Shown piece after piece: positions 9,598-30,293 of a stretch of 36,557 bases of DNA. Positions within the stretch are counted from its first letter, which is position 1; every line of letters begins with the position of its first letter. The position numbers and the translations under genes are program-made. The notes beneath the pieces were generated by a model that saw only the letters and a list, made by a program, of their open reading frames with translations, did not search any database and had not been told where the DNA came from. The stretch comes from an uncultured Erwinia sp. (GTDB lineage: Bacteria > Pseudomonadota > Gammaproteobacteria > Enterobacterales > Enterobacteriaceae): positions 1-36,557 of the forward strand of contig CALYQW010000030.1 of the NCBI GenBank assembly GCA_945290265.1, given 5' to 3'.

Positions 9598-9600
9598 GTC

Positions 9601-12447: not shown

Positions 12448-12461
12448 AATTTCCTCTTTAT

Positions 12462-12992
12462 TTAGTCTTCTTGTGTCACATCAACAAATGCATCTTTTTT
12501 TGGTGCTGATGCCAGTGCTTTTAATAAAGAATTGTCCTTCAACAAAGACATAACCAGTTCTTCGGCGCCTGCTTTACCATCCATATAGGTTTGGAGATTG
12601 GCCAGCTGGGTACGTGCTTCTAAAAGTTGTGATAATGAATCAACTTTTTTAGCAATTGCATCCGGAGCAAAGTCATCCATGCTTTCGAATGTCATATCAA
12701 CCATTAACTGACCTTCACCTGTCAACGTATTAGGTACGGCAAAGGCCACGCGTGGACGCATTGCCCGCATACGCTCATCAAAGTTATCAATGTCAATATC
12801 AAGGAAATGACGATCGGCTACTGATGGTAACGGCTCAAGTGGTTTACCGGATAAATCCGCCAGCACGCCCATAACAAATGGCAGCTCAATTTTTTTCTCT
12901 GAACCATAGATTTCCACATCATATTCTATCTGCACACGGGGTGCACGATTTCGCGCAATAAATTTTTGCGAGTTAGTTGTTTTGCTGGACAT
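12462..12992 (-). CDS. tssB: T6SS contractile sheath small subunit TssB
   Basis: TssB (VipA) is the small sheath subunit that co-folds with TssC; ClpV acts on the contracted TssB/TssC sheath. The 176 residues are of normal length, with RAPRVQIEYDVEIYGSEKKIELPFVMGVLADLSG at the N-terminus (key family pattern 'LPFVMGVLADLSG'). The ATG has an AAAGGG ribosome-binding site. It is the first T6SS gene after the inserted fimbrial block, and an 89-base leader with two inverted repeats separates it from the fimbrial minor subunit. Confidence 0.97.
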   Translation of the reverse strand: MSSKTTNSQKFIARNRAPRVQIEYDVEIYGSEKKIELPFVMGVLADLSGKPLEPLPSVADRHFLDIDIDNFDERMRAMRPRVAFAVPNTLTGEGQLMVDMTFESMDDFAPDAIAKKVDSLSQLLEARTQLANLQTYMDGKAGAEELVMSLLKDNSLLKALASAPKKDAFVDVTQED

Positions 12993-13681: not shown

Positions 13682-16296
13682 ATCACCTCCACCTGTTGAA
13701 TCTGTTGCACTTTCCCTTTTTGATCAACTGGCATTGTGCGTGGCACACAGCGTACCTTTCCACTTTCTGTATTGGCGTACAGCACCTGTTTTTGTGGATC
13801 CCAGCCACGAATAAATGCCTGTCCACCCTGACCAATGATCCCCTGGCTCACGTCGTCTTCATTCAGCAAATCGGTACCAATTGGCAGCGTGTTTTGCTGT
13901 TGGTCTTTAACAATTAATATCATTGGTGTACCGATTATTGTGCGCATATTCACCACAATACCGGCCCCCTGGCGTGGCACAACTTTTCTTCCACTTTCCA
14001 GAATATCCACACTTTCAGGCAAACCCCGGGGGTCCAGTGACACTTCATTTTCACGGTACGGGGTCAGTGAAGGCATAATCGCATAGCCGTTACCGTCGAT
14101 ACGGCCGCCGTAGCCATTCAGCAGCTTCGCCCCTTTCGCGCCCTTTGCGCCAATTACGGCAAACGGTGAATCACCGATTGACGGACCGGCAGTCATCCCC
14201 CCTGAGTGCGCCACCAGGCTGCCGCCACCAGAGAGAGAAAGCTGCTGGTGGTTATGATTACTGACTGAACCTGTCGCCCCCAGGCGACCAAATCCGCTTT
14301 GATAATTCAGGTTACCGGTGACTGAACGGTCACGGGTATTGCCGCGGGTATTGCCGCTGCTGTTGGCCATTGATGCTCCCAGGCCGTAGTTAAGCTCACT
14401 CTGCTCTCCCTGACTGCCGTTAACCATAGTCTGAAACTGAGTACTACCATTATTGTTATGGCTGGCAGTGGTATACAGTGAGTTAAACAGCGGGTTAGAG
14501 TAGACGGTTCTTCTTCCCAGCGGCACACTCAACGTCAACATCACACTGTTTTCTTCTTTATTACTTTCATTGCGTGAACGCATCATCGTCAGTCCGTAAT
14601 TAAACCATTTCAGCGACTGATTCAGCGTGACAGAATACTGCCGCGAGTCACTGCGCCCCCCCCAGTAGGTGTACATGCTGCCGGTAAAATAGAGCGACAG
14701 ACTATTCGTTAGCGGCTGATTTATCGTTGCGGTGAAACGGTGCTTAGTCCGGTAATCGGAGCCGAGCATATCATTGTTATTGCGCCCTTCTCTATCCTGG
14801 CTGGCCTCACGGAAGGTATAAAATCCCCGTGACGAATAGCGATATGCCGCCAGCGTCAGGTTGGTATCCATACTGTCCAGATGTTTTGTATAGTTCACCT
14901 GATAACTGTTACCGGACGCTTTGCTGTTTTTATGCAGGTCGCTCCAGGCACGGGTAACATCAATTGAGAATCCACCCAGCGAAGTATTAAAGGCATTACC
15001 CAGCGCGACTGAACGATACCGTTGTCCTAACTGAGCCCCTCCGAACAGTGTCAGGCCGTTGGCCACGCCGTAACGGTAAGTTCCCTGGAATATTCCCGGA
15101 TTTTTGCTCACTGCTTCATCCTTGAGCTGACCTGCAGCCACTGCGAAATTAGAAACTCCCTCGTGTAACAAACGTGGTGGTGCCGAAAACGGTATTTCCT
15201 GACGACGCTGACGACCATCTGCCTCAGTGACAACCAGTACTAAATCCCCCCCGTAGCCCATGGTACCGATATCACTTAATTGAAACGGACCCGGCGGCAC
15301 CACGGTTTCATAAATACTCAGTCCACGCTGCATCACGGTCACTTTGGCATTGGTTTCAGCAATCCCGCGAATAACCGGAGTATATTGCCGCAGTGAATCC
15401 GGCAGCATACGATCATCGGTATTCAGCATGGCGCCACGCAGGCTGAAACTCTCAAATATATCACCGGTGGTGCTACTTTCCCCCAGCGTCAGTTCCGCGT
15501 TTAACGGCGTAATATCGCGCTGAACATAACCAAGCAGGTTATGAGTTTTCGGTGAGCGGCCGCTGTCCCAAGTGGTATTTAGTCGCTTACGTACGCGCCA
15601 GTCACCAAAGTTAAAGCCGGCAAATAAATTTAAGTTTCCGTTATAGCTATTTTGCCGCTCTGAATAACCGCGCGCCCCCTGAAATGAGGAGTACACATTA
15701 CCGTTATAATCCAGGAAACCTAACGTATTACCCGCCTCCCATAAACTGGGATCGATATACCCATTCGGGATTTGCACCACGTTTATTTGCGGTAAAGTCA
15801 GATCCAGATAAAAATCACCGCTGTTAAACCGACTGCTGCTTTGGTCAACCCAATCTTCAATGAATGCACACCGGGCTTTAGCATCCCGTAGCTCAGGCAT
15901 TTTTGTATTATCGCTGAGCTTTATCCCCAGTTGTTTCAGCTGTTCGGCGGTTAAACAGGCCTGCGCGCCCTGGTTAACTGCCGGTACCACAAACAGAATG
16001 CTTTTTTTACTGGTTTCCTTGCCATTAATGGCAACAGTCACATCATACTGGCCAGGAAGTGCCGGGTTACCTTCAGTAAATCGGGAAATATCAATCCCGC
16101 TCCCATGGATAAATGATGGATTATATTCTATTGACGCCACTGCGGCGTTATTCTTATCATCCTCTGTTTTATCCGGCTCTGCAGCCCATCCATGATGACT
16201 GAAAACCACCGTGCTGGCTAACGTGACACAGGCCGGTAAAAGCATCAGATACGATGCTTTTAGCTTCCATGCAGGTATCTCAATACAACATTTCAC
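13660..16296 (-). CDS. Fimbrial outer-membrane usher (FimD/PapC family)
   Basis: The usher is the outer-membrane pore that receives chaperone-subunit complexes and extrudes the pilus. The 878 residues match the family. A signal peptide (cleavage near GWAAEP) precedes the N-terminal domain (EYNPSFIHGSGIDISRF near 57-73), then the 24-strand barrel, the plug, and C-terminal domains with YRENEVSLDPRGLPESVDI and a terminal Cys pair (RCVPRTMP, EVICSRSG). It follows the chaperone by 99 bases and overlaps the minor subunit. The coding strand has a G8 run at 14656-14663 (Y-W-G-G-R) and a G7 run at 15246-15252; loss of one G in the former brings a stop within about 12 codons. The frame is intact here. 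Confidence 0.97.
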   Translation of the reverse strand: MKCCIEIPAWKLKASYLMLLPACVTLASTVVFSHHGWAAEPDKTEDDKNNAAVASIEYNPSFIHGSGIDISRFTEGNPALPGQYDVTVAINGKETSKKSILFVVPAVNQGAQACLTAEQLKQLGIKLSDNTKMPELRDAKARCAFIEDWVDQSSSRFNSGDFYLDLTLPQINVVQIPNGYIDPSLWEAGNTLGFLDYNGNVYSSFQGARGYSERQNSYNGNLNLFAGFNFGDWRVRKRLNTTWDSGRSPKTHNLLGYVQRDITPLNAELTLGESSTTGDIFESFSLRGAMLNTDDRMLPDSLRQYTPVIRGIAETNAKVTVMQRGLSIYETVVPPGPFQLSDIGTMGYGGDLVLVVTEADGRQRRQEIPFSAPPRLLHEGVSNFAVAAGQLKDEAVSKNPGIFQGTYRYGVANGLTLFGGAQLGQRYRSVALGNAFNTSLGGFSIDVTRAWSDLHKNSKASGNSYQVNYTKHLDSMDTNLTLAAYRYSSRGFYTFREASQDREGRNNNDMLGSDYRTKHRFTATINQPLTNSLSLYFTGSMYTYWGGRSDSRQYSVTLNQSLKWFNYGLTMMRSRNESNKEENSVMLTLSVPLGRRTVYSNPLFNSLYTTASHNNNGSTQFQTMVNGSQGEQSELNYGLGASMANSSGNTRGNTRDRSVTGNLNYQSGFGRLGATGSVSNHNHQQLSLSGGGSLVAHSGGMTAGPSIGDSPFAVIGAKGAKGAKLLNGYGGRIDGNGYAIMPSLTPYRENEVSLDPRGLPESVDILESGRKVVPRQGAGIVVNMRTIIGTPMILIVKDQQQNTLPIGTDLLNEDDVSQGIIGQGGQAFIRGWDPQKQVLYANTESGKVRCVPRTMPVDQKGKVQQIQQVEVICSRSGH

Positions 16297-16395
16297 GGCA
16301 CACTCCTGTTATGCACCGCTCTGTCTTTACAAAATTTCTAACAGAGCCAGCGAGAAAATCCTTTTCTGCTTCGTTATCAAATGCTATATCCGTAG

Positions 16396-17178
16396 TTATT
16401 TATTCTTAATAACGAAACCTTGAGAATCATTCCATGTCAATGTTCTCTTAATATATGCGCCGTAGTCGTTAACCACTTGAAAATCAAGTGATGAAAATTT
16501 TCCATCCATTTTCAGCTTGTTCCTTGGATAAAAGGTTGCTGAACTTTTTGGTGCTACCATATCGCTGTCCAGTTCCACTGAACGCCCCTGACTGGTGACA
16601 CTTATCGGACCAAAAGAGAAATAATAAGGGCTGTTATTAGTGACTTTGATTCCTTTACCGCGCGCCCCTTCGGTGACCATTTCCCATTTCAACTGATCAA
16701 CTTCGTTACTAGAATTATTTTTCTCCAGCGACTGTGGTCGGTAAAACACTTTAATTCTGGTACGGAATGCCAGCTCCAGCTTTTGACCACTGCTGTGATT
16801 TTTATTTTGCGGCGGTATCTCCAGCATATTAAACCAGAACACTGATTCACGATCCTGTGGCAATGACATACCGTTATAAATAACCCGAACTGTTTGCCCT
16901 TTCCCCGGCTCCACACGATAGACCGGCGGGGTAACAATAAACGGCGTTTTTACGTTATTGATATTGGCATCGACTGAACCATCATCAATCCATACCTGTG
17001 CCAGCGCGGGCCTATTCCCTTTATTATTGGTACGTACACTGACTTCTCTTTCAGAGCCAGGAAAGATCACCCGTGTACCGCTAATGGTAATGGAAGCAAC
17101 AGCCTGACTGAGCCCACCAAAAACCATTAATAACAGCAATAAAATTCTCAACATATTATCTGCGAACCCTGGTAGCAT
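16396..17178 (-). CDS. Periplasmic fimbrial chaperone (PapD/FimC family)
   Basis: It binds fimbrial subunits in the periplasm by donor-strand complementation and delivers them to the usher. The signal peptide is best read from the second Met (MLRILLLLLMVFGG, start at 17154), which would give 252 residues; the upstream ATG at 17178 adds eight residues with no better ribosome-binding site. The mature protein has the family signature VFWFNMLEIPP and the conserved IKVFYRP containing the Lys that anchors the subunit C-terminus. It lies 84 bases downstream of the major subunit, after a strong hairpin, and 99 bases before the usher. Confidence 0.95.
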   Translation of the reverse strand: MLPGFADNMLRILLLLLMVFGGLSQAVASITISGTRVIFPGSEREVSVRTNNKGNRPALAQVWIDDGSVDANINNVKTPFIVTPPVYRVEPGKGQTVRVIYNGMSLPQDRESVFWFNMLEIPPQNKNHSSGQKLELAFRTRIKVFYRPQSLEKNNSSNEVDQLKWEMVTEGARGKGIKVTNNSPYYFSFGPISVTSQGRSVELDSDMVAPKSSATFYPRNKLKMDGKFSSLDFQVVNDYGAYIKRTLTWNDSQGFVIKNK

Positions 17179-17214
17179 TTATCCCGAAATAAAAATCTGA
17201 TTATCGTTCCGGTG

Positions 17215-17238
17215 AAGTCTCACCCGAAGGTGAGACTT
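17215..17238 (-). repeat. Intercistronic hairpin between major fimbrial subunit and chaperone
   Basis: A perfect 10-bp stem (AAGTCTCACC/GGTGAGACTT) closes, on the minus strand, with a TTCG loop flanked by C and G, which is the very stable UUCG tetraloop. It begins 25 bases after the major-subunit stop. No T-run follows on the minus strand, so it is more likely an mRNA-stabilising or processing stem than a strict terminator. Such stems set the excess of shaft subunit over chaperone and usher in pilus operons. Confidence 0.8.
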
Positions 17239-17262
17239 TTATATTACGGTTAAGTAACGCTA

Positions 17263-17814
17263 TCAGGGGTAGGCCAGTACATAGGTCACCTGAGCGGTCA
17301 CATCACCCACGGTAGGGACGCCGGTTGAATAGTAACCACCTGCATAGGTCAAAGTGGCGTCACCGAGAGGATTCGTACCCGTTCCTGGTGTGACTGTAAA
17401 GTATTTTTTACCGGTATCGCCCACGCGCAGCTGGGTGTGGTCATCGTTATACAGACGTACCTCAATATTTGTTGCCGCATTTGTTGTGGCCGAATTGGTC
17501 AGGTTATAGGTACTGGTATTAACCCCGCTGTTGATATTCGCTTCAAAGTGAGCGGCCACGCCGGTTATAGTTGACGGACATTTTGTCACTTTGATCTCGA
17601 AGAATTTAGTCCCTAATTCCACGCCAGCTTTCGGGAAGCTCTGCACACTCAGATGAGGCAGGGGAACGGTGATATTTTCCAGATTATCAACGATCTGGCA
17701 AGTATCGGCTTCCAACTTACCGTTAAAAGTTACCGTACCGCTCGACCCAGCAGCGTAAGAACCCGCAGATACGGACATAGCTACTGCGCAGATTGCACAC
17801 TGAATTTTACGCAT
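17263..17814 (-). CDS. Major fimbrial subunit (FimA-like pilin)
   Basis: This is the shaft pilin, secreted to the periplasm and polymerised outside the cell. The 183-residue precursor has a signal peptide (cleavage near AGSYA-AG, about residue 22). The pilin fold shows the Cys pair (ADTCQIVDN and VTKCPSTI), the beta-zipper near the end and a terminal aromatic strand VTYVLAYP. The ribosome-binding site AAGGATGG precedes the ATG. The gene starts 62 bases past the clpV stop with no terminator between them, so it may be transcribed with clpV, although a promoter in the gap cannot be excluded. First gene of the four-gene fimbrial block. Confidence 0.93.
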   Translation of the reverse strand: MRKIQCAICAVAMSVSAGSYAAGSSGTVTFNGKLEADTCQIVDNLENITVPLPHLSVQSFPKAGVELGTKFFEIKVTKCPSTITGVAAHFEANINSGVNTSTYNLTNSATTNAATNIEVRLYNDDHTQLRVGDTGKKYFTVTPGTGTNPLGDATLTYAGGYYSTGVPTVGDVTAQVTYVLAYP

Positions 17815-17876: not shown

Positions 17877-20552
17877 TTATTTACTGTGTGTTACTTCCAT
17901 TTTTAATTCAGTAGTGAATCCATCAACATTGTGGTCAAGCACCATGGTAAAACCTGCTAACTCTCCCTGACGTTCCAGTACTTTTTTACTTAACAGTGGC
18001 GTTATATTTTGTTCAATATAACGAATCAGCAGACGGGCACCAGTTTCCGCTACCGGACATTGCGCGACTACATGTTCTGTTACCGCCTCACTCCAGCTAA
18101 ATTCCATATTATGCTGGCTGTTAAGCCGGTCACGAACTCTTTTAAGGTGCAGATTCACTATATGATTCAGTGTCTCTGCCTGCAGTGGCAAATAAGGTGC
18201 CACAGTGACCCTGCCGAGAAATGCTGCCGGGAATACCTTCAGCAGTTCTGGTTGCAACGCGCCGGTTAGCCCTTCACTGTCCGGTGCCGTTTCTTCATCG
18301 GCATACAGCTGGCTAATCAGTTCACTGCCGGTATTACTGGTCAGCAGAATAATGGTGTTTTTGAAGTCAATAACCCGACCTTCCCCATCTTCCATCTGAC
18401 CTTTATCAAACACCTGGTAAAACAGTTCATGGACATCAGGATGCGCTTTTTCAACTTCATCCAGCAGCACCACGCTGTAAGGCTTACGACGCACCGCTTC
18501 GGTTAACACGCCGCCCTCACCATAGCCAACATAACCTGGAGGTGAACCCTTCAGCGACGAAATGGTGTGCGATTCCTGATACTCGCTCATATTGATAGTG
18601 ATCAGGTTCTGTTCACCGCCATACATACTTTCCGCAATAGCCAGTGCCGTTTCGGTCTTACCCACACCCGACGGTCCCACCAGCATAAATACCCCCAGCG
18701 GTTTGCGGGGATCGGACAGACCGGCGCGGGCGGTCATAATACTTTCGCTAAGCTGGTCAATGGCTGTCGGCTGACCAATGACCCGACTGTTCAGACGCTG
18801 CGGCAATTCCATAACCGCCCGATATTCATCTTTCAGCATCTGACCCACCGGAATACCTGTCCAGTCACCGACGATTTTGGCGATCACTTCGGCATTCACT
18901 TCGGCCTGAACCAGCAGTTGGTCATTGCGCAGCGCGTTCAGGGCGTTTTCCTGCTCCAGCAAATGTGCACGCAGGGTCTGCAGTTCTGCTTCATCCGTTT
19001 CTTCACCAGCCACCTGACCGGCAATTTCCTGACGGATTGCCACAATGGCTTCCACACAGCTGCGCTCCGCCTGCCAGCACGCATCAAGGCGGACAATTTC
19101 ATCCTCAGCCTGGGCAATATCCGCTTTCAGTTCAGCAATCCGACCACCCTGCTCTTTACCAAATTGACGGGCTTTCTCCAGAGATTCCAGTTCAGCCTGA
19201 GCGGTTTCACGGCGCCATACCAGCTTTTGCAGTTCAGCCGGCGGAGCAAACTGCGCCACGGCGATACGCGCACAGGCAGTATCCAGCAGGCTGATGGCTT
19301 TATCCGGTAGCTGACGTGCCGGAATATAACGGTGGGACAGTTTGACTGCCGCCTGCACCGCTTCATCCATAATCCAGACGCCGTGGTGCTTCTCCAGCGA
19401 GGCCACCAGGCCACGCAGCATAGCAATCGCGCTATCTTCGCCAGGTTCGTCGACCTGCAGCACCTGGAAACGGCGGGTTAGTGCCGGATCTTTCTCGATA
19501 TGGCGCTTAAATTCACTCCAGGTGGTAGCACCAATGGTACGCAACTGTCCGCGCGCCAGTGCCGGCTTCAGCAGGTTAGCTGCATCCCCGGTACCGGCGT
19601 TACCTCCGGCCCCCACCAGGGTATGTACTTCATCAATAAACAGAATGACCGGTTGCTCGGCACCCATTGCCTCGTCGAGGACGCTTTTCAGACGCGCTTC
19701 AAATTCCCCTTTCATGCTGGCACCCGCCGACAGCGCCACCACATCCAGTGCCAACAGACGCACCTGACTTAAGGCGGGCGGCACATTACCGGCAACAATC
19801 GCCTGCGCCAGCCCCTCCACCACTGCCGTTTTACCCACTCCGGCTTCGCCGGTTAACAGCGGGTTATTCTGGCGACGACGCAGCAGAATATCGGTCATGG
19901 TAGTAATTTCCTGGCTTCTGCCCAGTACCGGATCGATTTTTCCTTCGCGGGCTAACGCCGTCAGATCGGTGGTGTACTGTGTAAGCGTTGCACCGCTGGT
20001 GCCGGAGAGCGCATTACTGGCTTCACCCGGCAGTTCGCCGCTGTAGCTGCCTGAGCCATCGGTGGGTGCTTCTTCAGCTTCAGGAGACTCACGGGTGATG
20101 TAATTGAGTTCTGTGCTCAATACATCCAGTGCGACTTTATCCAGTCCGGGAATGATCGCCAGCAAAGCACGGCGCAATTCCATATTGCTCAGCATCGCCA
20201 GTAACAAATGACCGCTGCGAATACGGTAATCCAGGCATTCCAGGCTGGCACATACCCACGCCCGCTCGATAGCCAGTTCAATATGGTAGGAGAAATCTGA
20301 GATTGAAGATGCGCCAGCTGGCAGTTTAGCCATCGCCTGAGCAAGACCACGCTCCAGCGTTTCAGCATCGACTTCAAAATAACGAACGATATGTTTAAAG
20401 TCGTTATCTTCGTGGTGCCAGAGTTGATTGATCCAGTGAACCAGCTCGACGTAGGGGTTGCCGCGCAGTTTACAAAGTGTGGTTGCACTCTCAATAGCTT
20501 TGAAGAGTGTTGTATCTAACTTTCCAAATAAATTCTTCCTGAGAACAGCCAC
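17877..20552 (-). CDS. clpV: T6SS AAA+ ATPase ClpV (TssH)
   Basis: ClpV disassembles the contracted TssB/TssC sheath so it can be reused. The 891 residues hold a Clp N-terminal domain, a first AAA+ module with Walker A GEAGVGKT (near 235-242) and Walker B VILFIDEVHTLVGAG, a coiled-coil middle region (about 410-540), and a second AAA+ module with GPSGVGKTE (near 630) and VVLLDEVEKAHPDV. The start is GTG at 20552 with AAGGA upstream. It is the first gene of the minus-strand arm and reads away from tssF across the 509-base control region. Confidence 0.98.
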   Translation of the reverse strand: MAVLRKNLFGKLDTTLFKAIESATTLCKLRGNPYVELVHWINQLWHHEDNDFKHIVRYFEVDAETLERGLAQAMAKLPAGASSISDFSYHIELAIERAWVCASLECLDYRIRSGHLLLAMLSNMELRRALLAIIPGLDKVALDVLSTELNYITRESPEAEEAPTDGSGSYSGELPGEASNALSGTSGATLTQYTTDLTALAREGKIDPVLGRSQEITTMTDILLRRRQNNPLLTGEAGVGKTAVVEGLAQAIVAGNVPPALSQVRLLALDVVALSAGASMKGEFEARLKSVLDEAMGAEQPVILFIDEVHTLVGAGGNAGTGDAANLLKPALARGQLRTIGATTWSEFKRHIEKDPALTRRFQVLQVDEPGEDSAIAMLRGLVASLEKHHGVWIMDEAVQAAVKLSHRYIPARQLPDKAISLLDTACARIAVAQFAPPAELQKLVWRRETAQAELESLEKARQFGKEQGGRIAELKADIAQAEDEIVRLDACWQAERSCVEAIVAIRQEIAGQVAGEETDEAELQTLRAHLLEQENALNALRNDQLLVQAEVNAEVIAKIVGDWTGIPVGQMLKDEYRAVMELPQRLNSRVIGQPTAIDQLSESIMTARAGLSDPRKPLGVFMLVGPSGVGKTETALAIAESMYGGEQNLITINMSEYQESHTISSLKGSPPGYVGYGEGGVLTEAVRRKPYSVVLLDEVEKAHPDVHELFYQVFDKGQMEDGEGRVIDFKNTIILLTSNTGSELISQLYADEETAPDSEGLTGALQPELLKVFPAAFLGRVTVAPYLPLQAETLNHIVNLHLKRVRDRLNSQHNMEFSWSEAVTEHVVAQCPVAETGARLLIRYIEQNITPLLSKKVLERQGELAGFTMVLDHNVDGFTTELKMEVTHSK

Positions 20553-21061: not shown

Positions 21062-22942
21062 GTGGATCATAAATTCCTTGACTACTACAATAAAGAACTC
21101 ACCTTCATGCGCGAGATGGCTCATGAATTCGCTGACAAACACCCGAAAATTGCCGGGCGTCTTGGTATGCGTGGTATTGAAGTAGCCGATCCTTTTGTCG
21201 AGCGCCTGATTGAATCATTCTGCTTTATGTCTGCCAGAACCCAGCTGAAGCTCGATGCGGAATTTCCGCCCTTCACCCGCAGACTACTGGATATTATTTA
21301 CCCCAATTATACCGCCCCAACGCCATCAATGGGCGTTATCCAGTTGCAACCGAGCCTGAAAGAAGGTGATCTAACTCACGGTTATTCTGTAAAAAGGAAC
21401 ACTGCGTTTTTAACACCTATCGCGCCCGGAGAATTAACCCGCTGTGAATTCCGCAGTGGGCAGGATGTGCAACTTTGGCCGTTGGAAATTGCCGACGCGC
21501 GTTTAACATCCCTGCCACCGGACATGCCTAATCTGGAGCGTCATCGTATTCCGTTACAGCGCTTAAAAAGTGCGTTGCGCATCAAATTAAAACTGCCTGA
21601 CGAGATAAAATTTAGCCAGTTAACCGGACTGGACAGACTGCCTGTCTATATTGATGGTGACGAACGCATTGTCTCGCAAATATTTGAGTTACTGCACGCC
21701 AATCATGTTGCCACTATCATTCGTAACGGACAGGGAGAAAAGTCTCACGACACAATTATCAGCAAATCGGCACTGGATTTTGAGGGTCTTTCACCAGATC
21801 AAAGCCTGCTACCTGTCGCATGGAATATTTTCCAGGGACATAACCTGATTCAGGAATATTTCTCCTGCCGGCAGCGCTTTTACTTTTTCACCCTGACACA
21901 GCTGGCTCAGGGGCTTAAGCATAACCACTCCAGTGAAGCTGAAATCATAATCCTGCTGGACAAACAGTCGTCTGAATTAACTGGTCATGTCTCAGCATCA
22001 CGGTTTTTGCTGTACTGCACCCCTGTGATTAACCTGTTTCCGCGCCGTATGGATAAGCTGGAAATAAATCCGTCTCAGAATGAGTTTCATGTGGTTCCCG
22101 ATCGCAGCCGCCCGCTGGATTTTGAAATTTTCTCGATTAATAAAGTTTTTGGGCAGAAGGCAGAAACCAGCAAAGAAGTGGTGTTCAATTCATTATATCA
22201 GACGCGCCACAGCGACCGCGGTAACTTTGGCCGCTATTTTTCCACCCTGCGCAAAACCCGCCAGGGAAACAATAATGCCAGGAAATACGATACTCGTACT
22301 CCTTATGCCGGCACGGAAATTTTTCTGTCACTGGTTGATCAGCAGGAAGCGCCATACAGCGATACTATGCGCTATTTGTCAATCGACGCGATGGTGACCA
22401 ACCGCGATCTGCCGCGTCTTATTGCCGCCAGCGGTAATTTTTCGCTCACCATGCCGGATTCGGCACCGGTACAGGGCGCTCGTTTTGTGTTCCAGCCCAG
22501 TGCGCCGCGCGCGCCCTTTGCCAACGGTGAATCCGCCTGGCGCTTAATTCGCCAGCTCAGCTTTAACTATATTCCGCTGTCTGATATGCCACACAGCGAA
22601 GGGGGGGAATGCCTGCGCAATATGCTACGGCTGTTTATTAGTGATTTCGATCATGAATCTGCCGCACAGGTTGATGCGCTGGTCGGCTGTAAGACCGAAT
22701 CGATCATTCGTCGTTTGCCGGGTAACAGCCTGCTGGTGTACGCCCGTGGGGTACGCTGCGAACTCACCATTGATGAAGAAAATTTTTCCGGGATCAGCCC
22801 CTATCTGTTCGGCATGATTATGGAAAACTATCTGGCCCGCCATGCGGCAATTAATGTCTTTACGGAAACGGCGCTCTATTCCATGCAACGCGGACTGGTT
22901 GGCCAGTGGCAGGCACGTCCCGGACGCCGGGGAGTGCTGTAA
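21062..22942 (+). CDS. tssF: T6SS baseplate protein TssF
   Basis: TssF is the large wedge component of the baseplate, bound to TssG. The 626 residues are of usual length. Family features are the N-terminus DHKFLDYYNKELTFMREMAHEFA, PFVERLIESFCFMSARTQLKLD and the C-terminal FSGISPYLFGMIMENYLARHAAINVFTET. The start is GTG at 21062, chosen because DxxxLxYYNxEL is the conserved family beginning; the ribosome-binding site is weak. The stop overlaps the tssG ATG (TAATG). A G7 run lies at 22601-22607. Confidence 0.97.
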   Translation: MDHKFLDYYNKELTFMREMAHEFADKHPKIAGRLGMRGIEVADPFVERLIESFCFMSARTQLKLDAEFPPFTRRLLDIIYPNYTAPTPSMGVIQLQPSLKEGDLTHGYSVKRNTAFLTPIAPGELTRCEFRSGQDVQLWPLEIADARLTSLPPDMPNLERHRIPLQRLKSALRIKLKLPDEIKFSQLTGLDRLPVYIDGDERIVSQIFELLHANHVATIIRNGQGEKSHDTIISKSALDFEGLSPDQSLLPVAWNIFQGHNLIQEYFSCRQRFYFFTLTQLAQGLKHNHSSEAEIIILLDKQSSELTGHVSASRFLLYCTPVINLFPRRMDKLEINPSQNEFHVVPDRSRPLDFEIFSINKVFGQKAETSKEVVFNSLYQTRHSDRGNFGRYFSTLRKTRQGNNNARKYDTRTPYAGTEIFLSLVDQQEAPYSDTMRYLSIDAMVTNRDLPRLIAASGNFSLTMPDSAPVQGARFVFQPSAPRAPFANGESAWRLIRQLSFNYIPLSDMPHSEGGECLRNMLRLFISDFDHESAAQVDALVGCKTESIIRRLPGNSLLVYARGVRCELTIDEENFSGISPYLFGMIMENYLARHAAINVFTETALYSMQRGLVGQWQARPGRRGVL

Positions 22943-23952
22943 TGACTGACAACCGTTTTCAGTCAGAACAACAGCAAGCATCGTCTGAGACTGAACCACT
23001 GCAAAGTGGTTTTATCAGTATTATGCGTAAGCTCGCCGCGCGTTCACCGCAACGGCCACTGCCCGGCAAAGCCGAGCTGCCCTCGCAGGAAAATTTTCGT
23101 CTTGGTCAGTCGGCACATATGGTCTTTGCGCCGCGTGAAATTGCCGGGATAGATTATCAGGATGGTAAAACTGAACTGGACCTGTTCTCTCTGGGACTTT
23201 GGGGGCCTCAGGGCGCACTGCCACTCCATCTTACCGAGTTGGCTTATTCGCGTGCCGAATCCCACGACAATACGCTCATCGACTTTGTTAATCTGTTTCA
23301 TCATCGTGCGTTATCTCAGTTCTGGCGTGCATGGTTTGTTTCTCAGGACACGGCCTCTCTCGATCGTCGGGATGATGAACGCTTTTCCTTTTATGTTGGC
23401 AGTCTGATGGGCATGGATCCCGCTGAGCTGACTGAGAGTGAGTTGCCACTTCATCCTCGCCTCGCCTCCTCGGCACATGTCATCCGCGAAGCCCGTAATC
23501 CTGAAGGGCTGGCCGGCGCGCTTCAGTACTATTTCGAAGTCCCGGTACAGCTAAATGAGTACGCAACGCAATGGATTATTCTGCAAAACAGCGATCTGTC
23601 GCAGTTAGGTAACGACAACAGCTCGCTGACACTGGCCGATGGTGCCATTCTTGGCGATACCGTGCTCGACCGTCAGCATAAGTTTCAGATGATTTTTGGG
23701 CCACTCAGCCTGCAGCAATATCTGCGCTTCAGCCCGTGGGGGCAGGATTTGCCGGTACTGCGTGAGTGGGTACGAAATTTTGTCGGTTATGAATATGCCT
23801 GGGAAGTGGGGCTGGTGCTGGCAGCAGATGAAGTCCCCTACGCCACGCTGGGAGAGACACATCAGTTGGGGTATACCAGTTGGCTGGATCGCACGGATAA
23901 AAGTACGCCTCTGGCAGGGATGAGTTTCGATCCGGAAAGCTCCGGGCGTTAA
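22942..23952 (+). CDS. tssG: T6SS baseplate protein TssG
   Basis: TssG (VasB/ImpH) is the small wedge component of the baseplate. The chosen ATG at 22942 gives 336 residues, overlaps the tssF stop by one base and has GGGGAG just upstream; an earlier GTG at 22906 lies inside tssF and is unlikely. Family hallmarks are FISIMRKLAARSP, the VFAPREIAGIDY segment, LFSLGLWGPQGALPLHLTEL and FVNLFHHRALSQFWRAW. Confidence 0.96.
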   Translation: MTDNRFQSEQQQASSETEPLQSGFISIMRKLAARSPQRPLPGKAELPSQENFRLGQSAHMVFAPREIAGIDYQDGKTELDLFSLGLWGPQGALPLHLTELAYSRAESHDNTLIDFVNLFHHRALSQFWRAWFVSQDTASLDRRDDERFSFYVGSLMGMDPAELTESELPLHPRLASSAHVIREARNPEGLAGALQYYFEVPVQLNEYATQWIILQNSDLSQLGNDNSSLTLADGAILGDTVLDRQHKFQMIFGPLSLQQYLRFSPWGQDLPVLREWVRNFVGYEYAWEVGLVLAADEVPYATLGETHQLGYTSWLDRTDKSTPLAGMSFDPESSGR

Positions 23953-23983
23953 CGCTTGTTACGACATTATGAAGGGAAGCAAA

Positions 23984-25054
23984 GTGAGTGAGTTAACCAT
24001 TCCGTGTCCTGACTGGTATCAGTCAATACTAAAACCCAGTACCGTTCATCCTCCCTGTGGCGAAAGCCTGGAATATGATTCCGCCTTTCTTATGTTGCAG
24101 AGTCATCTACAGCCCCGGCTGGGCGCAGAATACGGCGATTTTGTCGAAGCCATTGAACCGATTAACTGGCCCGAAATTGAGCGGGAAGCCAGCGCTTTAC
24201 TGGTAAAAAGTAAGGATGTTCGCCTGGTAATTATGCTGATCCGTTGCAGGATGCGTCAGGTCGGCGTTAGCGCGCTCTGCGAAGGGATTGAAGCCCTGCT
24301 GTGTTTACTGGAAACCTGGCCAGAAGCGCTGCATCCTCAGCTGTATGATGAAGGAGAATATATACCTATCATACGTGCCAATGCCTTCGCCGAAATGGAG
24401 TCGGTTGAGGGTTTGATGTCCGATTTTCGTCAGCAAATGCTGCCGCGTGCCACCGGTCTACAGCTTAGCGTACGTGATGTAGAAAAAGCCTCCACCTTTC
24501 CCCGTGAAGAAGGGGCACATAACGATCTGACCATGAATGCTGTGCGCCTGTCCTGGCAACAGGAGCCGGCGATTGTCTCACTTCAGCTGGCGGCACAGCG
24601 TCTGACTTTGTTAACCAAGCGTCTGCGCGAGTCACTGGGTGAAGATGCCCCTGAATTCAATCAGTTGCAGACCCTGCTGGGCTATTTTGGTTCAGCGCCC
24701 GCGGCCGCGCCAGCCCCGGAAATTACTGATGCCGCGCCAGTAATAGAATCCACGGTATATCATCAGAAGACGGCAGAAACCATGACCGTTTCCGCTGCGC
24801 AGATTAATCCTCTGCCCGCCAGCCTGAACTCAGTAAGCGCTCCGAGAGCGATTGAAAGCCGGGCCGATGCCCTGAACCGGTTACGCGAAGTTCGTAGTTG
24901 GTTCAGTCAGACAGAGCCCAGCAGCCCGGTGATCTGTCTGCTGGCCTTTACCGAAAAAACCATAGGTAAAAGTTTTACTGAGCTGTTGCAGTTTCTGCCA
25001 CAGGAATTAATTAGCCGTCTGGAACCCGGTCAGGGGGAGGGGCAGTCATCATGA
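23984..25054 (+). CDS. tssA: T6SS protein TssA (ImpA family)
   Basis: TssA primes and caps assembly of the sheath and tube at the baseplate. The GTG at 23984 is preferred, giving 356 residues, because GAAGGGA sits at ideal spacing; the ATG at 23969 precedes that site. The N-terminal ImpA domain is clear (CGESLEYDSAFLML, INWPEIEREASALLVKSKDVRLVIML). A linker rich in Ala/Pro (about 232-290) leads to a short C-terminal segment (RADALNRLREVRSWFSQTEPSSPV). The stop overlaps the start of the fimbrial adhesin gene as ATGA, an unexpected neighbour for a T6SS gene. Confidence 0.94.
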   Translation: MSELTIPCPDWYQSILKPSTVHPPCGESLEYDSAFLMLQSHLQPRLGAEYGDFVEAIEPINWPEIEREASALLVKSKDVRLVIMLIRCRMRQVGVSALCEGIEALLCLLETWPEALHPQLYDEGEYIPIIRANAFAEMESVEGLMSDFRQQMLPRATGLQLSVRDVEKASTFPREEGAHNDLTMNAVRLSWQQEPAIVSLQLAAQRLTLLTKRLRESLGEDAPEFNQLQTLLGYFGSAPAAAPAPEITDAAPVIESTVYHQKTAETMTVSAAQINPLPASLNSVSAPRAIESRADALNRLREVRSWFSQTEPSSPVICLLAFTEKTIGKSFTELLQFLPQELISRLEPGQGEGQSS

Positions 25055-26043
25055 AAAAACGTAATCGGTTAGCTGTGCTAATTCCCTTACTGTTCAATAC
25101 GCCGGTAATGGCGCTTTGTGTCCTTGACAAGGTGCCACCGCTGGGGGGGGTAGATCCAATGACTTTATCCAGTCCAGCGTTAACGATTTATATTGATGCT
25201 GATCAGAAGGCAAGCACAACAACGCCCATTGATGTAGTAAGCACCCCAACGAGTCAGCTGATCAGTTATCTCTGCATAAAAGATCAGGATATATATGGTA
25301 AAAATGTTTTGCCACCACTAACTTCAGCGGGTGCGGCGGGCATGTTTACCACCCTGATTGACGGTATCGCTATCAAACCTTTATTTGGCAACAATAAAGG
25401 TATGGGGACATTTAATTCGGAAAGGACGGTCAGTCAGGCTCGTATGAACTTCTCGACAGCATCCTTTTATAAGGCGGAATTTTACAAAACTCGGGATCGT
25501 TTGGATTTACAAAATCCCGATGGCGATATTGTAATGAATTCAGGGCCGATTGCTTTTAACTGGATGAATATTGCCAACCAGGACAATGCCGCTTTGACAT
25601 TCAACCTGGGCGAGATCCATATTATCAGTACCCCCGTTTGTCGCCTGGATGGGACACGAACCGTCGATTTCAATAATGTCAACTCCAGTCAACTGCGTGC
25701 CGGCGTTAGCAGACCGTTAAATTTTAGTCTGGTGTGTGCCACCGATTATGGGTCGTACACTGCGAAAGCCGCGCTGACAACGCAAACAGCCACCAGCGAT
25801 AATAAATTTATTAAGGTCTTTGACAGTCTAGATAATCCGGATGTGATGAAAATAGAAGTACGTGACAGTAAAGGGAAAAGCTTACCACTGGATGGCCTTA
25901 CCGGTGAGGTACAGCAAAATGTGACCAGTGAGGTCCCTGCTGATTTTAACTGGACGGCGATCCTGTCTGCCGCGTCTGATACTGAGCTACCACAAAATGG
26001 TAAGTTCAGAGCACAGGCCGAAATTGTCCTGGACTTGAATTAA
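25051..26043 (+). CDS. Two-domain fimbrial tip adhesin
   Basis: This 330-residue secreted protein is built like a chaperone-usher tip adhesin. A signal peptide (MKKRNRLAVLIPLLFNTPVMA) is followed by an N-terminal receptor-binding-type domain (about 22-195, with Cys in ALCVLDK and YLCIKDQ). A C-terminal pilin domain follows (about 205-330), with a Cys pair (TPVCRLDG and SLVCATDY), the FimH-like stretch RAGVSRPLNFSLVC and a final strand GKFRAQAEIVLDLN. Usual pilin-type adhesin length is about 300. It has no chaperone or usher next to it; those are on the other strand 8 kb away at 13660-17178. Its ATG is coupled to tssA by ATGA. A G8 run at 25143-25150 (codons 31-34) would place TAG in frame on loss of one G. 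No homologue named; ligand unknown. Confidence 0.85.
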   Translation: MKKRNRLAVLIPLLFNTPVMALCVLDKVPPLGGVDPMTLSSPALTIYIDADQKASTTTPIDVVSTPTSQLISYLCIKDQDIYGKNVLPPLTSAGAAGMFTTLIDGIAIKPLFGNNKGMGTFNSERTVSQARMNFSTASFYKAEFYKTRDRLDLQNPDGDIVMNSGPIAFNWMNIANQDNAALTFNLGEIHIISTPVCRLDGTRTVDFNNVNSSQLRAGVSRPLNFSLVCATDYGSYTAKAALTTQTATSDNKFIKVFDSLDNPDVMKIEVRDSKGKSLPLDGLTGEVQQNVTSEVPADFNWTAILSAASDTELPQNGKFRAQAEIVLDLN

Positions 26044-26221: not shown

Positions 26222-27559
26222 ATGACTTCAGAAGCAACTTTATTTGTCAGTATTGCCAGTTACCGCGATCCGGAGCTGATTCCAACTCTTCGTAATATGA
26301 TTGAAGAAGCAGAAAACCCGGCACGCCTGCATATTGCAGTATGTTGGCAGGACGACTGTGATATTAAACCTTTTCTTGACGCCGGATTTTCTCTGCTCAC
26401 CCCTTTTCAACATAATGAAACCGAATGTTTTCGCTTCGGGTATCGTCAGGCACAAATTGAAGTGCTGCCGGTTCATTACTACACTAGTCAGGGCGCATGC
26501 TGGGCACGTTATCAGGTTGAAGCACGTTATCAACAGGAAGATTACTTTCTGCAGATAGATTCTCACTGTCGCTTTGCCCCACAGTGGGAAAGCACGATGA
26601 TTGAAATTCTGGAAAGTTTACGTGGCCAGAGTAAATGGCCGGTGCTCTCAACTTATCCCCCGGGATATGTTCCCGGAGAAAATGAAGATCGCAAACAACA
26701 TGTCAGCCGCCTGATCTTTAATGGCTTTAACAACAACGGTATTTTGCGCCTCACCGCCACCCGTTATAACAATCCTGAACCCAAACGCTGTGGTTATCTG
26801 GCCGCTGGCTTTGTCTTTGCCGACGGTCATTTTGTCAGCAATGTGCCTAACGATCCGCAAATCTTCTTTATGGGCGAAGAAATCACCATGGCCGCGCGCG
26901 CCTGGACCAGTGGATACGATTTCTGGACCCCACATAAGCTGATGGTCTGGCATTATTACGCCCGCAAATCATCCCCTAAAGTCTGGGGTGATCACAGCAA
27001 TAAGGCAAAAACGGACGGACTGGTGGATAAAGCCTGGTGGGAGCATGATCTTGTCGCCCGCGAACGCATCGCCAGCGTATTACAAACCACCGATAACCCG
27101 GTTGATGTGGGTAAATGGAAACTGGGTACCCATCGCAGTCTGCAGGATTATCAGTATCACCTCGGGGTGGATTTCCGTGAAAAACGGGTTCATCCTGCGC
27201 TGGTCAGCGGCGAAAAGGAGAGCTGGTTTAACGAATTGCCGGAAAGCCACGAGCACTGGCTGCAGTCCCTGCAGCATATCAATGAAAAACTGCTGCGTCT
27301 GAAGCGCGACGAAATTGATTTCAACCGCAACGATGTTGACTGGTGGCATGTCGGCATTTACGACAAAAATAATACCGCAGTGAAAGTTTTCCAGTATTCA
27401 ACTAAAGAGATAAAAGCCCAGGTAAAAGAGTTGGATGATAAACATATCGAACTGAAAGTCCGGTTTATTACCCCATTGTCTGTTGATACCAATAACATCC
27501 GCATCTGTCCTTATCTGACCGATAACGGATGGGGTGATGTTCTGGAGAAACCCTGGTGA
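26222..27559 (+). CDS. GT60-like glycosyltransferase (GlcNAc family, PF11397 type)
   Basis: This 445-residue protein lacks a signal peptide and membrane segments, so it is probably cytoplasmic. The N-terminal two-thirds match the family of the eukaryotic Skp1 hydroxyproline GlcNAc-transferase: FVSIASYRDPELIPTL (8-23), AVCWQDD (39-45), GACWARY (91-97) and the DXD-like metal/sugar-nucleotide motif QIDSHCRF (111-118), then a large beta-strand core. In that family UDP-GlcNAc is the donor; donor and acceptor here are inferred. The C-terminal 150 residues are not recognised. It lies 178 bases after the adhesin gene, and its stop overlaps the next T6SS gene (GTGA), so it is part of the T6SS operon. 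Possible targets are the adhesin, a T6SS part or an effector. Confidence 0.8.
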   Translation: MTSEATLFVSIASYRDPELIPTLRNMIEEAENPARLHIAVCWQDDCDIKPFLDAGFSLLTPFQHNETECFRFGYRQAQIEVLPVHYYTSQGACWARYQVEARYQQEDYFLQIDSHCRFAPQWESTMIEILESLRGQSKWPVLSTYPPGYVPGENEDRKQHVSRLIFNGFNNNGILRLTATRYNNPEPKRCGYLAAGFVFADGHFVSNVPNDPQIFFMGEEITMAARAWTSGYDFWTPHKLMVWHYYARKSSPKVWGDHSNKAKTDGLVDKAWWEHDLVARERIASVLQTTDNPVDVGKWKLGTHRSLQDYQYHLGVDFREKRVHPALVSGEKESWFNELPESHEHWLQSLQHINEKLLRLKRDEIDFNRNDVDWWHVGIYDKNNTAVKVFQYSTKEIKAQVKELDDKHIELKVRFITPLSVDTNNIRICPYLTDNGWGDVLEKPW

Positions 27560-28182
27560 AAACATCTCCAAAGTTCGAAGAAATAGTCGCAATCTGTATG
27601 CTGGTATCGATGCGCGGCGTTATTCCTTCTCTGCTTGAATACCAGTATCAAATTAAACATCGCGTCGAAGGTCTGTTTGAGGAGTTGAAAAAAAAGAGCT
27701 ACTCCTCAGATGCCCTTGATGCCTTGTGCCGTCTTATTTGTTTGGTGGTGGATTTGAATACCCGTCACTGCCTTGAGGAGCAGGGTATCCGCTGGTACGG
27801 CTACGAACTTGAGCATGTTTTTTATGGCTTCGGCAGCGAGCAGTTATTTACCGAACGGCACGCTAAATTACTGTTTACCTGTGAGTCTGACGAACTTGCG
27901 GATTATACCCGTCTGCTGTTTACCTTATCTCCGATGCCATTACCCGGCAGTAAATTAAATCTGCCGCGCGCCAGCATTGTCCCGGAGGAGGAGGATGCCT
28001 CTTTCATCGCGCTGGAAGAGGCTGGCACAGGCGAAACTTGCGCCGCCGAGGAACAGAAAGAAGCGGTGAAACCGCTCCGCGCTTTTTTCCGCCCGGCATT
28101 TTTTATTCAATTATTTGCTGCTGTTGCGTTGCTGGCCTGCCTGTGGGCTGGTTGTTGGTTTTATCTTAAGGATGGGATGTAA
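27556..28182 (+). CDS. DotU/TssL-like inner-membrane protein, short form
   Basis: A 208-residue protein with a cytoplasmic helical N-terminal region (about 1-130) and a single C-terminal membrane anchor (about 178-203, FFIQLFAAVALLACLWAGCWF). The layout and the segment ALCRLICLVVDLNTRHCLEEQGIRWYGYELEHVFYG resemble the DotU domain of TssL (ALC..LDE..L...PWG...W....L...F.G), but the usual D-E pair is replaced by V-D, so it is diverged. The GTG start overlaps the glycosyltransferase stop, and the next gene follows with no gap. A genuine TssL is present at 6893-8251, so this is a second, probably specialised, copy. Confidence 0.7.
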   Translation: MKTSPKFEEIVAICMLVSMRGVIPSLLEYQYQIKHRVEGLFEELKKKSYSSDALDALCRLICLVVDLNTRHCLEEQGIRWYGYELEHVFYGFGSEQLFTERHAKLLFTCESDELADYTRLLFTLSPMPLPGSKLNLPRASIVPEEEDASFIALEEAGTGETCAAEEQKEAVKPLRAFFRPAFFIQLFAAVALLACLWAGCWFYLKDGM

Positions 28183-29817
28183 ATGCGTCTTTCCGCCATA
28201 CCATACCCCCTGCTTGCTGTTTCTGCTGTTATTATGTTCACCCTGGTGGCCATTCTAATCTATGCCTTTCACTTAACGCCCGCTCTGTTTTTGCTTGTCC
28301 CGCTGGCATTGCTGGCGCTCGGTTTACACCTGCATCAGCAGCAGCCTTTACCAGAAGCGACAGATATCGCTGCTAATACCGCTAAGCCAGAAAGGCCCGT
28401 TGTGCTGATTATTGGCCCCTATGCCGCTAAGTGGTTTAGTCAGTCCGGACAATATGATAAAGCACGCTACGCTGACCAAACTACCTGGTTACTGATCGCC
28501 GAGGCTAAAGAATTACTGTTGCGCCTGAATTATCTGCGTGGCAATGCACCTAATGCCCCTTTACGGGCTTTCTTTCCGTTTTTACCTGACGGACACGAAA
28601 CCAGCGATCAGATCGTGAAGCAATTAGAGTTGTGGCAGCAGTCACTCACCGCTATTGCGCCCACGTTTTCTCTGCCCTGTACGTTTGCAATTTATGCACG
28701 CCTGAGCAATGAGCGCCGGAATAACTCCCCGGATAATGCCACCTGGAGTGGCGACCTAGACCTTAGACAAGCGTCATTCACCGATTATGACAAGGCGTTG
28801 AGTCGGCTGAAAAAACAGCTAAAATCGCGCATGTTAGTCAATATACACAGTGCACAACGCGCGATTATGGGTGACCATCTTTTTCGCTGGTTAAATGAAA
28901 GCGGAATCGGCAACCGTCTGAGTCTGTTATTTACTCAGTCAGCTCTGCCGCTGAATGATATTATTCTGTGCGACTATGGTAATGGTTTTACCCGTCATGG
29001 GGCCTGGTCGCACTGGCTTGAACAGCATTATGCCATTTTGCCTGCCCTGGGCAGCAGTTTAACGCTGCCGCCAACACCCCATGTTTTACTGCCAGAGATA
29101 ATTGACGGCATACCAACACTGCCGGAATCCCCTCCTCCTGCGGCACCAAAAATGTACTGGAGTGTGATTCTGATTTTCTTATTGCTGTGTGCACATTTGC
29201 TGAATACCACCTGGACGGTTCAGCAACAGCAACTGAAATTCCAGCATCAAATGTTGAACGTTCCCGGGCTGGACTCGTTGTCGATAAATAAAGTACAGGG
29301 CTACGTTGCCAATATGCAGAATATGCAGCGCCAGTGGTCTGACTGTAAAGATCGACCACTGGTCAATAGCTGGGGGCTTTCGCCCTGCAAGACATATTCA
29401 CGCACGATCGACGAACGTATCTCACAACTCAAAAATATGCCTTCGCTGACCACGGCCGGGAGTGGACCCACGTTTAGTAGCGGTAGCGCTGTACTGCTGC
29501 CAGCAGCGTTACCCACCCTGTTGGAAATTGCCAGTCTGGCGAGAGAATATCCCCAGCATAAATTGTTAATTATCGGTCATACAGATAATACCGGCAGTGA
29601 TAATTTTAACCTTTCCATCGCAGCTCAGCGTGCCATTAGTGTACGCGACTGGCTGCTTAAAGAGCATATTCCGGCAAGTCAGCTGGCAACCCGTTCTGCC
29701 GGGGCTACAGAACCTGTTGCCAGCAATGACACAGCAAACGGACGGCAACAAAACCGCCGGGTGGAAGTCCTGATTTTACCGACATTTATTGATAACAAGG
29801 AGTTTACACGCAAATGA
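28183..29817 (+). CDS. TagL-like T6SS protein: three membrane segments plus OmpA peptidoglycan-binding domain
   Basis: The 544-residue protein has two N-terminal membrane segments (about 6-28 and 31-48), a cytoplasmic domain of about 270 residues, a third membrane segment (about 325-343, WSVILIFLLLCAHLL), then a periplasmic part ending in an OmpA-like domain (about 430-538: GHTDNTG, AAQRAISVRDWL, NRRVEVLIL). This matches the topology of TagL, which anchors the enteroaggregative E. coli Sci-1 T6SS to peptidoglycan. The cytoplasmic domain begins VVLIIGPYAAKWF, which looks like a decayed version of the TssM P-loop region (FLVLGAPAAGKT), so it could also be viewed as a reduced TssM. Starts directly after the DotU-like gene and overlaps the Eag gene (ATGA). 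Confidence 0.8.
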   Translation: MRLSAIPYPLLAVSAVIMFTLVAILIYAFHLTPALFLLVPLALLALGLHLHQQQPLPEATDIAANTAKPERPVVLIIGPYAAKWFSQSGQYDKARYADQTTWLLIAEAKELLLRLNYLRGNAPNAPLRAFFPFLPDGHETSDQIVKQLELWQQSLTAIAPTFSLPCTFAIYARLSNERRNNSPDNATWSGDLDLRQASFTDYDKALSRLKKQLKSRMLVNIHSAQRAIMGDHLFRWLNESGIGNRLSLLFTQSALPLNDIILCDYGNGFTRHGAWSHWLEQHYAILPALGSSLTLPPTPHVLLPEIIDGIPTLPESPPPAAPKMYWSVILIFLLLCAHLLNTTWTVQQQQLKFQHQMLNVPGLDSLSINKVQGYVANMQNMQRQWSDCKDRPLVNSWGLSPCKTYSRTIDERISQLKNMPSLTTAGSGPTFSSGSAVLLPAALPTLLEIASLAREYPQHKLLIIGHTDNTGSDNFNLSIAAQRAISVRDWLLKEHIPASQLATRSAGATEPVASNDTANGRQQNRRVEVLILPTFIDNKEFTRK

Positions 29818-30293
29818 AAATGCAGAAATACAGCTATAACCTGTACGAAGGTACATTTATCAGCGAACAGCCCGTTCTTGACCGCAGCATTCAGATACTG
29901 ATGTTTCGTGATCCTGCCAACAATGAGTACCAAATTATCATCAACCGTGCCACGTTAGGCGAAGATCAGGATATTGAAGCCTGGTGTAATAGTGAGATGG
30001 ATTCATTACGTAACAAGCTGCCGGGTTTCGATATGGAGGGTAAAATGCTCAAACATGAAATTGGCCCGGCAAAGCTGCAAGTGATTCAGGTTGCTAATCA
30101 TTTCCTCTCTGACGGAGATACCGTGCGCCAGGTACAATCAGTGATGAAATTACCCATGAATCCGCGTTATAACCCGCTGGGTAACGATATTCTTATTTTT
30201 ACACTGAATGCACTGAACGAATTCACTGAATATCAGCGCAAACATTACGTTAAGGTAATTAATAGTTTCTCACCCGACATCAGCGGATTTTGA
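29814..30293 (+). CDS. Eag-type T6SS effector chaperone (DUF1795/DcrB domain)
   Basis: A 159-residue cytoplasmic protein with the DUF1795 pattern: YNLYEGTFISEQPVLDRSIQILMFRDP near the N-terminus, EYQIIINRATL, and a C-terminal strand-helix pair ending FTEYQRKHYVKVINSFS. Proteins of this family (EagR; SciW in Salmonella) hold the N-terminal transmembrane region of Rhs/PAAR-type effectors before loading on VgrG. It overlaps the TagL-like gene by ATGA. An internal ATG at 29820 is possible. No Rhs, PAAR or other candidate client is in the window, so the client is presumably encoded elsewhere or beyond vgrG. Confidence 0.85.
   Translation: MKMQKYSYNLYEGTFISEQPVLDRSIQILMFRDPANNEYQIIINRATLGEDQDIEAWCNSEMDSLRNKLPGFDMEGKMLKHEIGPAKLQVIQVANHFLSDGDTVRQVQSVMKLPMNPRYNPLGNDILIFTLNALNEFTEYQRKHYVKVINSFSPDISGF

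Follow-up and report, generated by a model that had tools for sequence, protein, structure and literature searches.

The gene at positions 26222 to 27559 (plus strand) of a 36,557-nucleotide stretch from an uncultured Erwinia sp. (the window, which is the entire contig C30 of a 3.44-Mb genome) lies in a type VI secretion system (T6SS) locus and belongs to the GT60 glycosyltransferases. With a probability of roughly 70%, the encoded enzyme is predicted to act in the cytoplasm as a mucin-type polypeptide O-glycosyltransferase dedicated to one T6SS subtype, and the same probability applies to the spike protein VgrG, via its repeat tail, as the candidate main substrate. The presence of a repeat tail of mucin-like composition on each readable related VgrG, together with GT60 in the operon, points to a sugar coat that the bacterium places on its injector tip. 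We know of no T6SS spike described as a glycoprotein. Among the papers searched, none joins "type VI secretion" with "GlcNAc-transferase" and none joins "VgrG" with "mucin-like", though papers naming VgrG, glycosylation, and T6SS together exist. The main text of De Maayer 2011 (PMC3235180) makes no mention of fimbria, usher, adhesin, pilus, glycosyl, or GlcNAc.

The GT60 enzyme and its T6SS subtype

The GT60 gene has an ATG start and encodes 445 residues, comprising a GT-A domain (about residues 1 to 325) with a D113-S-H115 motif and a β-sandwich domain (about residues 350 to 445). The Pfam family PF11397 matches residues 6 to 318 over profile positions 1 to 350 of 352, scoring 248.1 bits where the cut-off is 21, which excludes a chance match; an NCBIfam scan gives no match at E values up to 0.01. 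A GT60-like family had already been named by an earlier sequence-only reading of this DNA on the basis of three motifs, and this assignment is confirmed, with SIASYRDPEL at residues 10 to 19, GACWARY at 91 to 97, and QIDSH at 111 to 115 of the translation. Residues D113 and H115 are invariant in 20 of 20 alignment rows, and the triplet D113-S114-H115, a candidate metal-binding motif of the D-x-D/H type, is kept in 59 of 59. The predicted fold (pLDDT 94.0) has GT-A glycosyltransferases as its top structural matches, as the same reading had anticipated, and in this model it resembles the animal mucin-initiating enzymes of GT27, with 12 to 16% identity in the structural rows. Profile searches of PDB sequences with GT60 list no GT27 chain at E values up to 1 or up to 10. 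The single match at E values up to 1 (E = 0.78) is not credible, nor are any of the 21 matches of the wider search (E = 0.014 and above), 20 of which are fatty-acid-binding proteins aligned from approximately the linker into the C-terminal region.

Among the GT60 enzymes are protist mucin-type polypeptide α-GlcNAc-transferases, and α-GlcNAc is transferred both in protist mucin domains and to cytosolic Skp1, according to parts of PMC8724618. The description of the family as best known from eukaryotic cytoplasmic glycosylation thus covers half of it and leaves out the mucin-type enzymes. Threonine is given as the acceptor of a Trypanosoma cruzi GT60 in sections of PMC3769586. Inspection by eye alone reveals no evident N-terminal signal or membrane segment in the window enzyme, and its expected place of action is therefore the cytoplasm, in which VgrG is synthesised.

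The residues outside the PF11397 match number about 127 (319 to 445), not the 150 first estimated, and those from about 350 onward form the predicted β-sandwich, with weak Ig-like matches. In the fold alignment, which consists of the window protein and 58 other rows (that of CwR94 and 57 proteins from phage contigs), all 58 have at least 80 residues past position ∼350 that align with the β-sandwich at low identity. Because phage GT60s have this aligning extension, the domain is probably not T6SS-specific targeting information, and the proposal that it serves as a T6SS targeting signal has been dropped. The GT60 of a Klebsiella aerogenes plasmid (348 residues) lacks the extension.

The enzyme is tied to the same T6SS in other genomes, an association that the sequence-only reading had foreseen. 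Of 37 genomes of the genus, 13 have a PF11397 match, of which that in G020 was dropped as weak (20.7 bits, or 21.4 with neighbours, in a 113-residue frame with three TGA codons); its 15-kb surroundings show no similarity to window proteins. The remaining 12 genomes are the same 12 that stand out in a search with a TssF profile, scoring at least 1227 bits compared to 650 for the next; this profile was made from GT60-linked loci, yet it is blind to GT60 itself. The VgrGs of these genomes are equally distinct, with at least 1098 bits compared to 535. Across the order (394 genomes), the two genomes with a PF11397 match are also the two with the TssF subtype, in a search that scored at most a few TssF candidates per genome at an E cut-off of 1e-200. 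TssF is found at E values up to 1e-100 in 99 plasmid records; at least 75% identity to the Burkholderia ambifaria query is seen in three of them, the query included, and all three (B. ambifaria, Paraburkholderia sprentiae, and Cupriavidus campinensis) bear GT60 in the order TssA-fimbrial protein-GT60. A scan of genome contigs with a single-protein query gave one locus only, and an alignment query might reach further. The TssF proteins of all 17 GT60 loci form one clade (support 100/99) relative to four sister loci and one outgroup, and GT60 occupies a constant slot after TssA, or after TssA and the adhesin, in 17 of 17. In all samples searched, GT60 and the TssF subtype are fully linked.

This constancy bears on the suggestion that GT60 is a T6SS effector glycosylating proteins of the target cell. 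The gene is encoded in a T6SS locus, and PMC4518317 describes Afp18, a toxin with glycosylating activity from an injection system that resembles a phage tail. Against this, GT60 keeps its slot and is present in every TssF-clade locus examined, unlike variable cargo; a Pfam scan of the protein shows none of the domains PAAR, Rhs, Hcp, and VgrG, and related phage enzymes often lie near repeat proteins. A delivered effector, one of three roles offered by the sequence-only reading, is accordingly very unlikely.

The T6SS GT60s of enterobacteria group together (100/99), with the K. aerogenes plasmid protein among them, whereas the three from Burkholderiales nest among phage enzymes. A tree constrained to unite the two T6SS sets is worse by 94 log-likelihood units (approximately unbiased [AU] test, p = 0.00026), in a comparison made after the grouping had been seen in a quick tree. 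Since TssF is a single clade and GT60 comprises two lineages, the GT60 gene was, judging from these trees, probably exchanged for another in this one slot, and such a replacement would point to selection acting on the activity. The nesting among phage GT60s would also suit a passenger gene, for example, one from a phage, that acts on surface polysaccharide. That two lineages share one slot and that linkage to the subtype is complete make such a passenger highly improbable, and no polysaccharide-synthesis family is recognised among the window proteins scanned.

The VgrG repeat tail as candidate substrate

VgrG (TssI; 3..2363, minus strand) runs off the contig start inside its tail, which begins at about positions 3 to 110 with a proline-rich part followed by a Thr-Glu stretch and leaves the contig in ...PIPTPPETETESVTVTETETETETET. 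In the same genome, contig C17 has at its right end a long Thr-Glu (TE)n repeat that runs to a stop. After it come PAAR, a protein at the place of TagK, TagJ, and TssE, which is the order downstream of VgrG in several relatives. The two contigs were read as separate, unjoined pieces. The assembly break between them appears to lie inside the VgrG repeat tail (window positions 3 to 110 and the last about 180 bases of C17, locus L188), and in four loci of relatives (L190, L191, L197, and L357) the contig likewise ends, or bases are undetermined, within or close to this region.

In the relatives, the VgrG tails following the β-helix are composed of repeats or near-repeats with the units PTPT, TETP, SVTP, PPVTKPPVTE, TTPPA, and PTEA, further units being TTPEP, PTPPEP, PPPTD, SSEPPPP, and STEEPEP. 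The enterobacterial tails are mostly Thr-rich, and those of the Burkholderiales differ from one another (SSEPPPP, STEEPEP, and, in Cupriavidus, GPTGST/PTPTPP). A composition rule for 40 residues (P+S+T at least 60%, S/T at least 20%, and P at least 15%) is passed by 13 of the 17 GT60-linked VgrGs, namely, 12 of 16 and that of CwR94 (0.875). In L193 (genome G009), the frame is broken and the PTEA repeat, at 0.55, lies in the next open reading frame (ORF). The Cupriavidus VgrG is cut in L184; in the longer L367, its tail has a GPTGST repeat of collagen-like type (0.625) and, in broken frames, a PTPTPP repeat. A repeat tail is thus seen in 16 of 17 (13 by rule and 3 by eye or in broken frames), the window protein included; in the 17th, L190, the contig stops ahead of the tail, which is hence unreadable. 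The division of the G009 VgrG into two ORFs ahead of its tail (11952-14311 in L193) reflects either a mutation or an assembly error. These tails are dense Ser/Thr(/Pro) tandem repeats with a variable unit, as is characteristic of mucin-like domains (13 of 17 by rule).

No control VgrG passes the rule: 0 of 20 paralogues in genomes with GT60, 0 of 38 in congeners without it, and 0 of 3 and 0 of 7 from other loci. The controls are a selection from the VgrGs of the genus, not the full set (30 listed loci, 12 of them GT60-linked, plus 40 hand-picked stretches). Except in L245, L369, and L371, the ORF comes to its stop within the sequence read (65 of 68). The difference between 13/17 and 0/68 gives a Fisher value of 3e-12, uncorrected for shared ancestry.

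An alternative regards the tail as a flexible linker or slippage product and the enzyme as acting on the TssA linker, Hcp, the OmpA-domain protein, or a minor pilin. Several Thr codons are used in 5 of the 9 tails whose codons were counted, which argues against slippage, while in the other 4 one Thr codon dominates or Thr is missing, as slippage would leave. The interdomain linker of TssA is rich in A/P/S/T, but it is shared by sister T6SSs without GT60 and was dropped as a substrate. The OmpA-domain protein contains a 30-residue window with 15 P/S/T, compared to 17 in VgrG. With repeat tails absent from the 68 other VgrGs, this alternative is unlikely.

Several observations weigh against VgrG as the substrate. 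The window VgrG reaches only 0.48 up to the contig end, below the rule, and its tail, the full length of which is unread, is mainly Thr-Glu with little proline. The Cupriavidus tail is partly collagen-like, and the low codon variety in 4 of 9 tails counts on the same side. The Fisher values overstate independence because the species share ancestry, and one of the 12 GT60 genomes (G417) has 10% contamination. Finally, GT60 is not adjacent to vgrG, the two being about 24 kb apart in the window.

Under the preferred reading, with VgrG as the substrate, GT60 would transfer α-linked GlcNAc from UDP-GlcNAc onto threonine (and serine) residues of the tail before the spike is mounted, and three glycosylated, stiffened tails would then surround the PAAR tip. 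More speculatively, the coat might keep the repeats soluble and protease resistant, or it might act as a hydrated brush or tip extension or as a ligand for target-cell lectins or target glycan receptors; any one of these roles is, taken singly, held at well below even odds. Of the three roles proposed by the sequence-only reading, modification of a T6SS component fares best, with the VgrG tail, which that reading did not mention, as the candidate.

Neighbouring genes and the adhesin

Directly upstream of GT60, as the sequence-only reading had noted, lies the gene for a fimbrial adhesin-like protein (25051..26043, plus strand; PF00419, E = 6.9e-9). It follows TssF, TssG, and TssA. The same arrangement is found in 14 of 17 loci, including the three from Burkholderiales, and would fit an enzyme that glycosylates the adhesin in the cytoplasm ahead of export. 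GT60 is nevertheless kept without an adhesin in the other three. L038 (G416) and L042 (G425) have a full-length GT60 in a T6SS locus without an adhesin and without fimbrial genes between TssH and TssB; a full-length adhesin was not found elsewhere in these genomes (the best other match has 34 bits in one, and there is none in the other). In the TssF tree, L038 pairs with the fimbriated L014 (98/97), separate from L042. The CwR94 locus (L021) contains pilin, chaperone, and usher, and the adhesin is absent in the 21 kb read. Furthermore, the adhesin shows no tandem P/T repeat (at best 14 of 30 residues are P/S/T). Because GT60 persists in these three loci, the adhesin as sole substrate is rejected as the main explanation and, as an alternative to VgrG, is unlikely.

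The window contains all of the T6SS core (TssA, B, C, E, F, G, H, J, K, L, and M, Hcp, VgrG, and PAAR) except TssE and PAAR, which are found on C17. On the minus strand, a T6SS half-operon continues from VgrG with a hypothetical 225-residue protein and TssM, TssL, TssK, TssJ, Hcp, TssC, and TssB (2378..12992), chaperone-usher fimbrial genes for two pilin-type proteins, an usher, and a chaperone (13082..17814), and TssH (ClpV; 17877..20552). The fimbrial set between TssH and TssB looks complete and is kept in relatives, apart from L038 and L042. The plus strand contains TssF (21062..22942, supported by the family scan and the co-occurrence searches), TssG (22906..23952, family scan), TssA (23969..25054, Pfam and NCBIfam scans), the adhesin, GT60, a hypothetical protein (27556..28182, GTG start), an OmpA-domain protein with hydrophobic segments (28183..29817, family scan), and a DcrB family protein (29814..30293, PF08786).

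The GT60 stop overlaps the GTG start at 27556 as GTGA, as had been noted. The designation of this ORF as the next T6SS gene is doubtful: its product has a C-terminal hydrophobic segment and no Pfam family above cut-off, and its DotU-like signal is weak at best (hhalign probabilities of 13.4 and 1.4), so that a DotU identity was set aside. The P. sprentiae locus (L186) likewise contains DotU-family and OmpA proteins, perhaps as a second membrane module, and both genes are absent at that place in L017 and L041. The PF08786 protein is constant across 14 enterobacterial loci, and no Rhs gene is recognised in the window; the family includes the EagR chaperones of Rhs effectors.

GT60 beyond T6SS and comparison with known systems

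Phage GT60s show a similar neighbourhood. Among the best 80 phage GT60 loci (61 after dereplication), 30 contain a P/S/T-rich ORF, which is the immediate neighbour of GT60 in 22; the best 80 RNase-H-anchored control loci (54 after dereplication) contain none. An RNase-H alignment served as the control because single-protein controls yielded only 3 and 4 loci. P/S/T-rich genes cluster within two genes of phage GT60 (34/229 compared to 15/506, p = 1.9e-8). Among the other neighbours, the 60 scanned include Hoc-like head decorations, tail fibres, a baseplate protein, and carbamoyltransferases, and part of the repeat signal may therefore stem from structural modules. A Nol-like carbamoyltransferase gene adjoins GT60 in the XacN1 phage (L037) and in a phage contig (L097); this family accounts for 3 of the 60 neighbours.

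Outside phages, GT60 on an Azospirillum thermophilum plasmid (L033 and L368) lies in line with genes of an extracellular contractile injection system, two adjacent sheath ORFs of which contain (PT)n. On the K. aerogenes plasmid, it adjoins a gene with a short PTPTPSPTPTPTPTPEPTPE stretch, below the rule. Cellular GT60 neighbours also include an ORF with (TEAPTEPP)n (L091, 2-787) and one with (PTPTPE)n and RTX-type repeats (L095, 10549-12279), the latter not in the gene-caller set behind the counts. Further GT60 matches occur on Methylobacterium and Phyllobacterium plasmids and in two Stenotrophomonas phages.

These wider data also hold points that tell against the pairing of GT60 with repeat proteins. 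The phage control is anchored on a replication gene, while phage GT60 lies partly among structural genes, where repeats may be commoner. In other bacteria, a repeat gene is present in 2 of 17 anchored loci (20 fetched) and adjacent in 1, and none of three further anchored loci (the K. aerogenes plasmid, a Granulicella plasmid, and phage XacN1) passes the rule.

A broader proposal, which we hold at slightly less than even odds, is that bacteria and phages run their own GT60 mucin-type O-glycosylation, and that many of the enzymes have as their partner a repeat protein of some contractile or surface machine. Such partners would be the VgrG spikes of one T6SS subtype, the sheath loops of an extracellular injection system, and phage structural proteins. 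The T6SS spike would then be a glycoprotein, and its mucin coat would be part of meeting or entering the target cell. The pathway of protists and animals may, on this view, go back to prokaryotes or viruses. If the VgrG reading is true, a bacterium builds mucin-like glycoproteins at its injector tip with the enzyme family that starts protist mucin chains. This would offer a simple cytoplasmic model of mucin-type O-glycosylation and a new variable in how the T6SS meets its targets, and repeat proteins in the same locus would be a lead to the substrates of unstudied bacterial and phage GT60 genes.

The closest known enzymes are those of the same Pfam family, Gnt1 and Gnt2 of Dictyostelium and TcOGNT2 of T. 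cruzi, the mucin-type members of which act on Thr-rich proteins according to sections of PMC8724618 and PMC3769586. The window enzyme differs in being bacterial, in its place in a T6SS operon, and in its C-terminal β-sandwich domain, and its substrate and sugar are predicted only. The likeness to the GT27 GalNAc-transferases of animals and Toxoplasma is one of structure alone, with a β-sandwich where the ricin-type lectin domain would be; none is recognised among the structural rows listed, which by itself does not exclude one.

The closest known secretion system is the T6SS of the Salmonella SPI-6 type; the TssF of two Salmonella records is about 60% identical to that of B. ambifaria. Core genes are common to both types, and the order TssE-F-G-A is found in three of four sister loci (L180 to L182), the TssG ORF being uncalled in L179. 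None of the sister loci L179 to L182, which are not from Salmonella, has a GT60, an adhesin, or an embedded usher in the 20 kb read, and the 10 related VgrGs have no repeat tail as far as read. A functional parallel is provided by HMW1C, which glycosylates the HMW1 adhesin in the cytoplasm. Systems of this type likewise devote a cytoplasmic enzyme to an exported substrate whose gene lies with that of the enzyme, but they differ in enzyme family, in linkage, and in modifying an adhesin rather than an injection spike.
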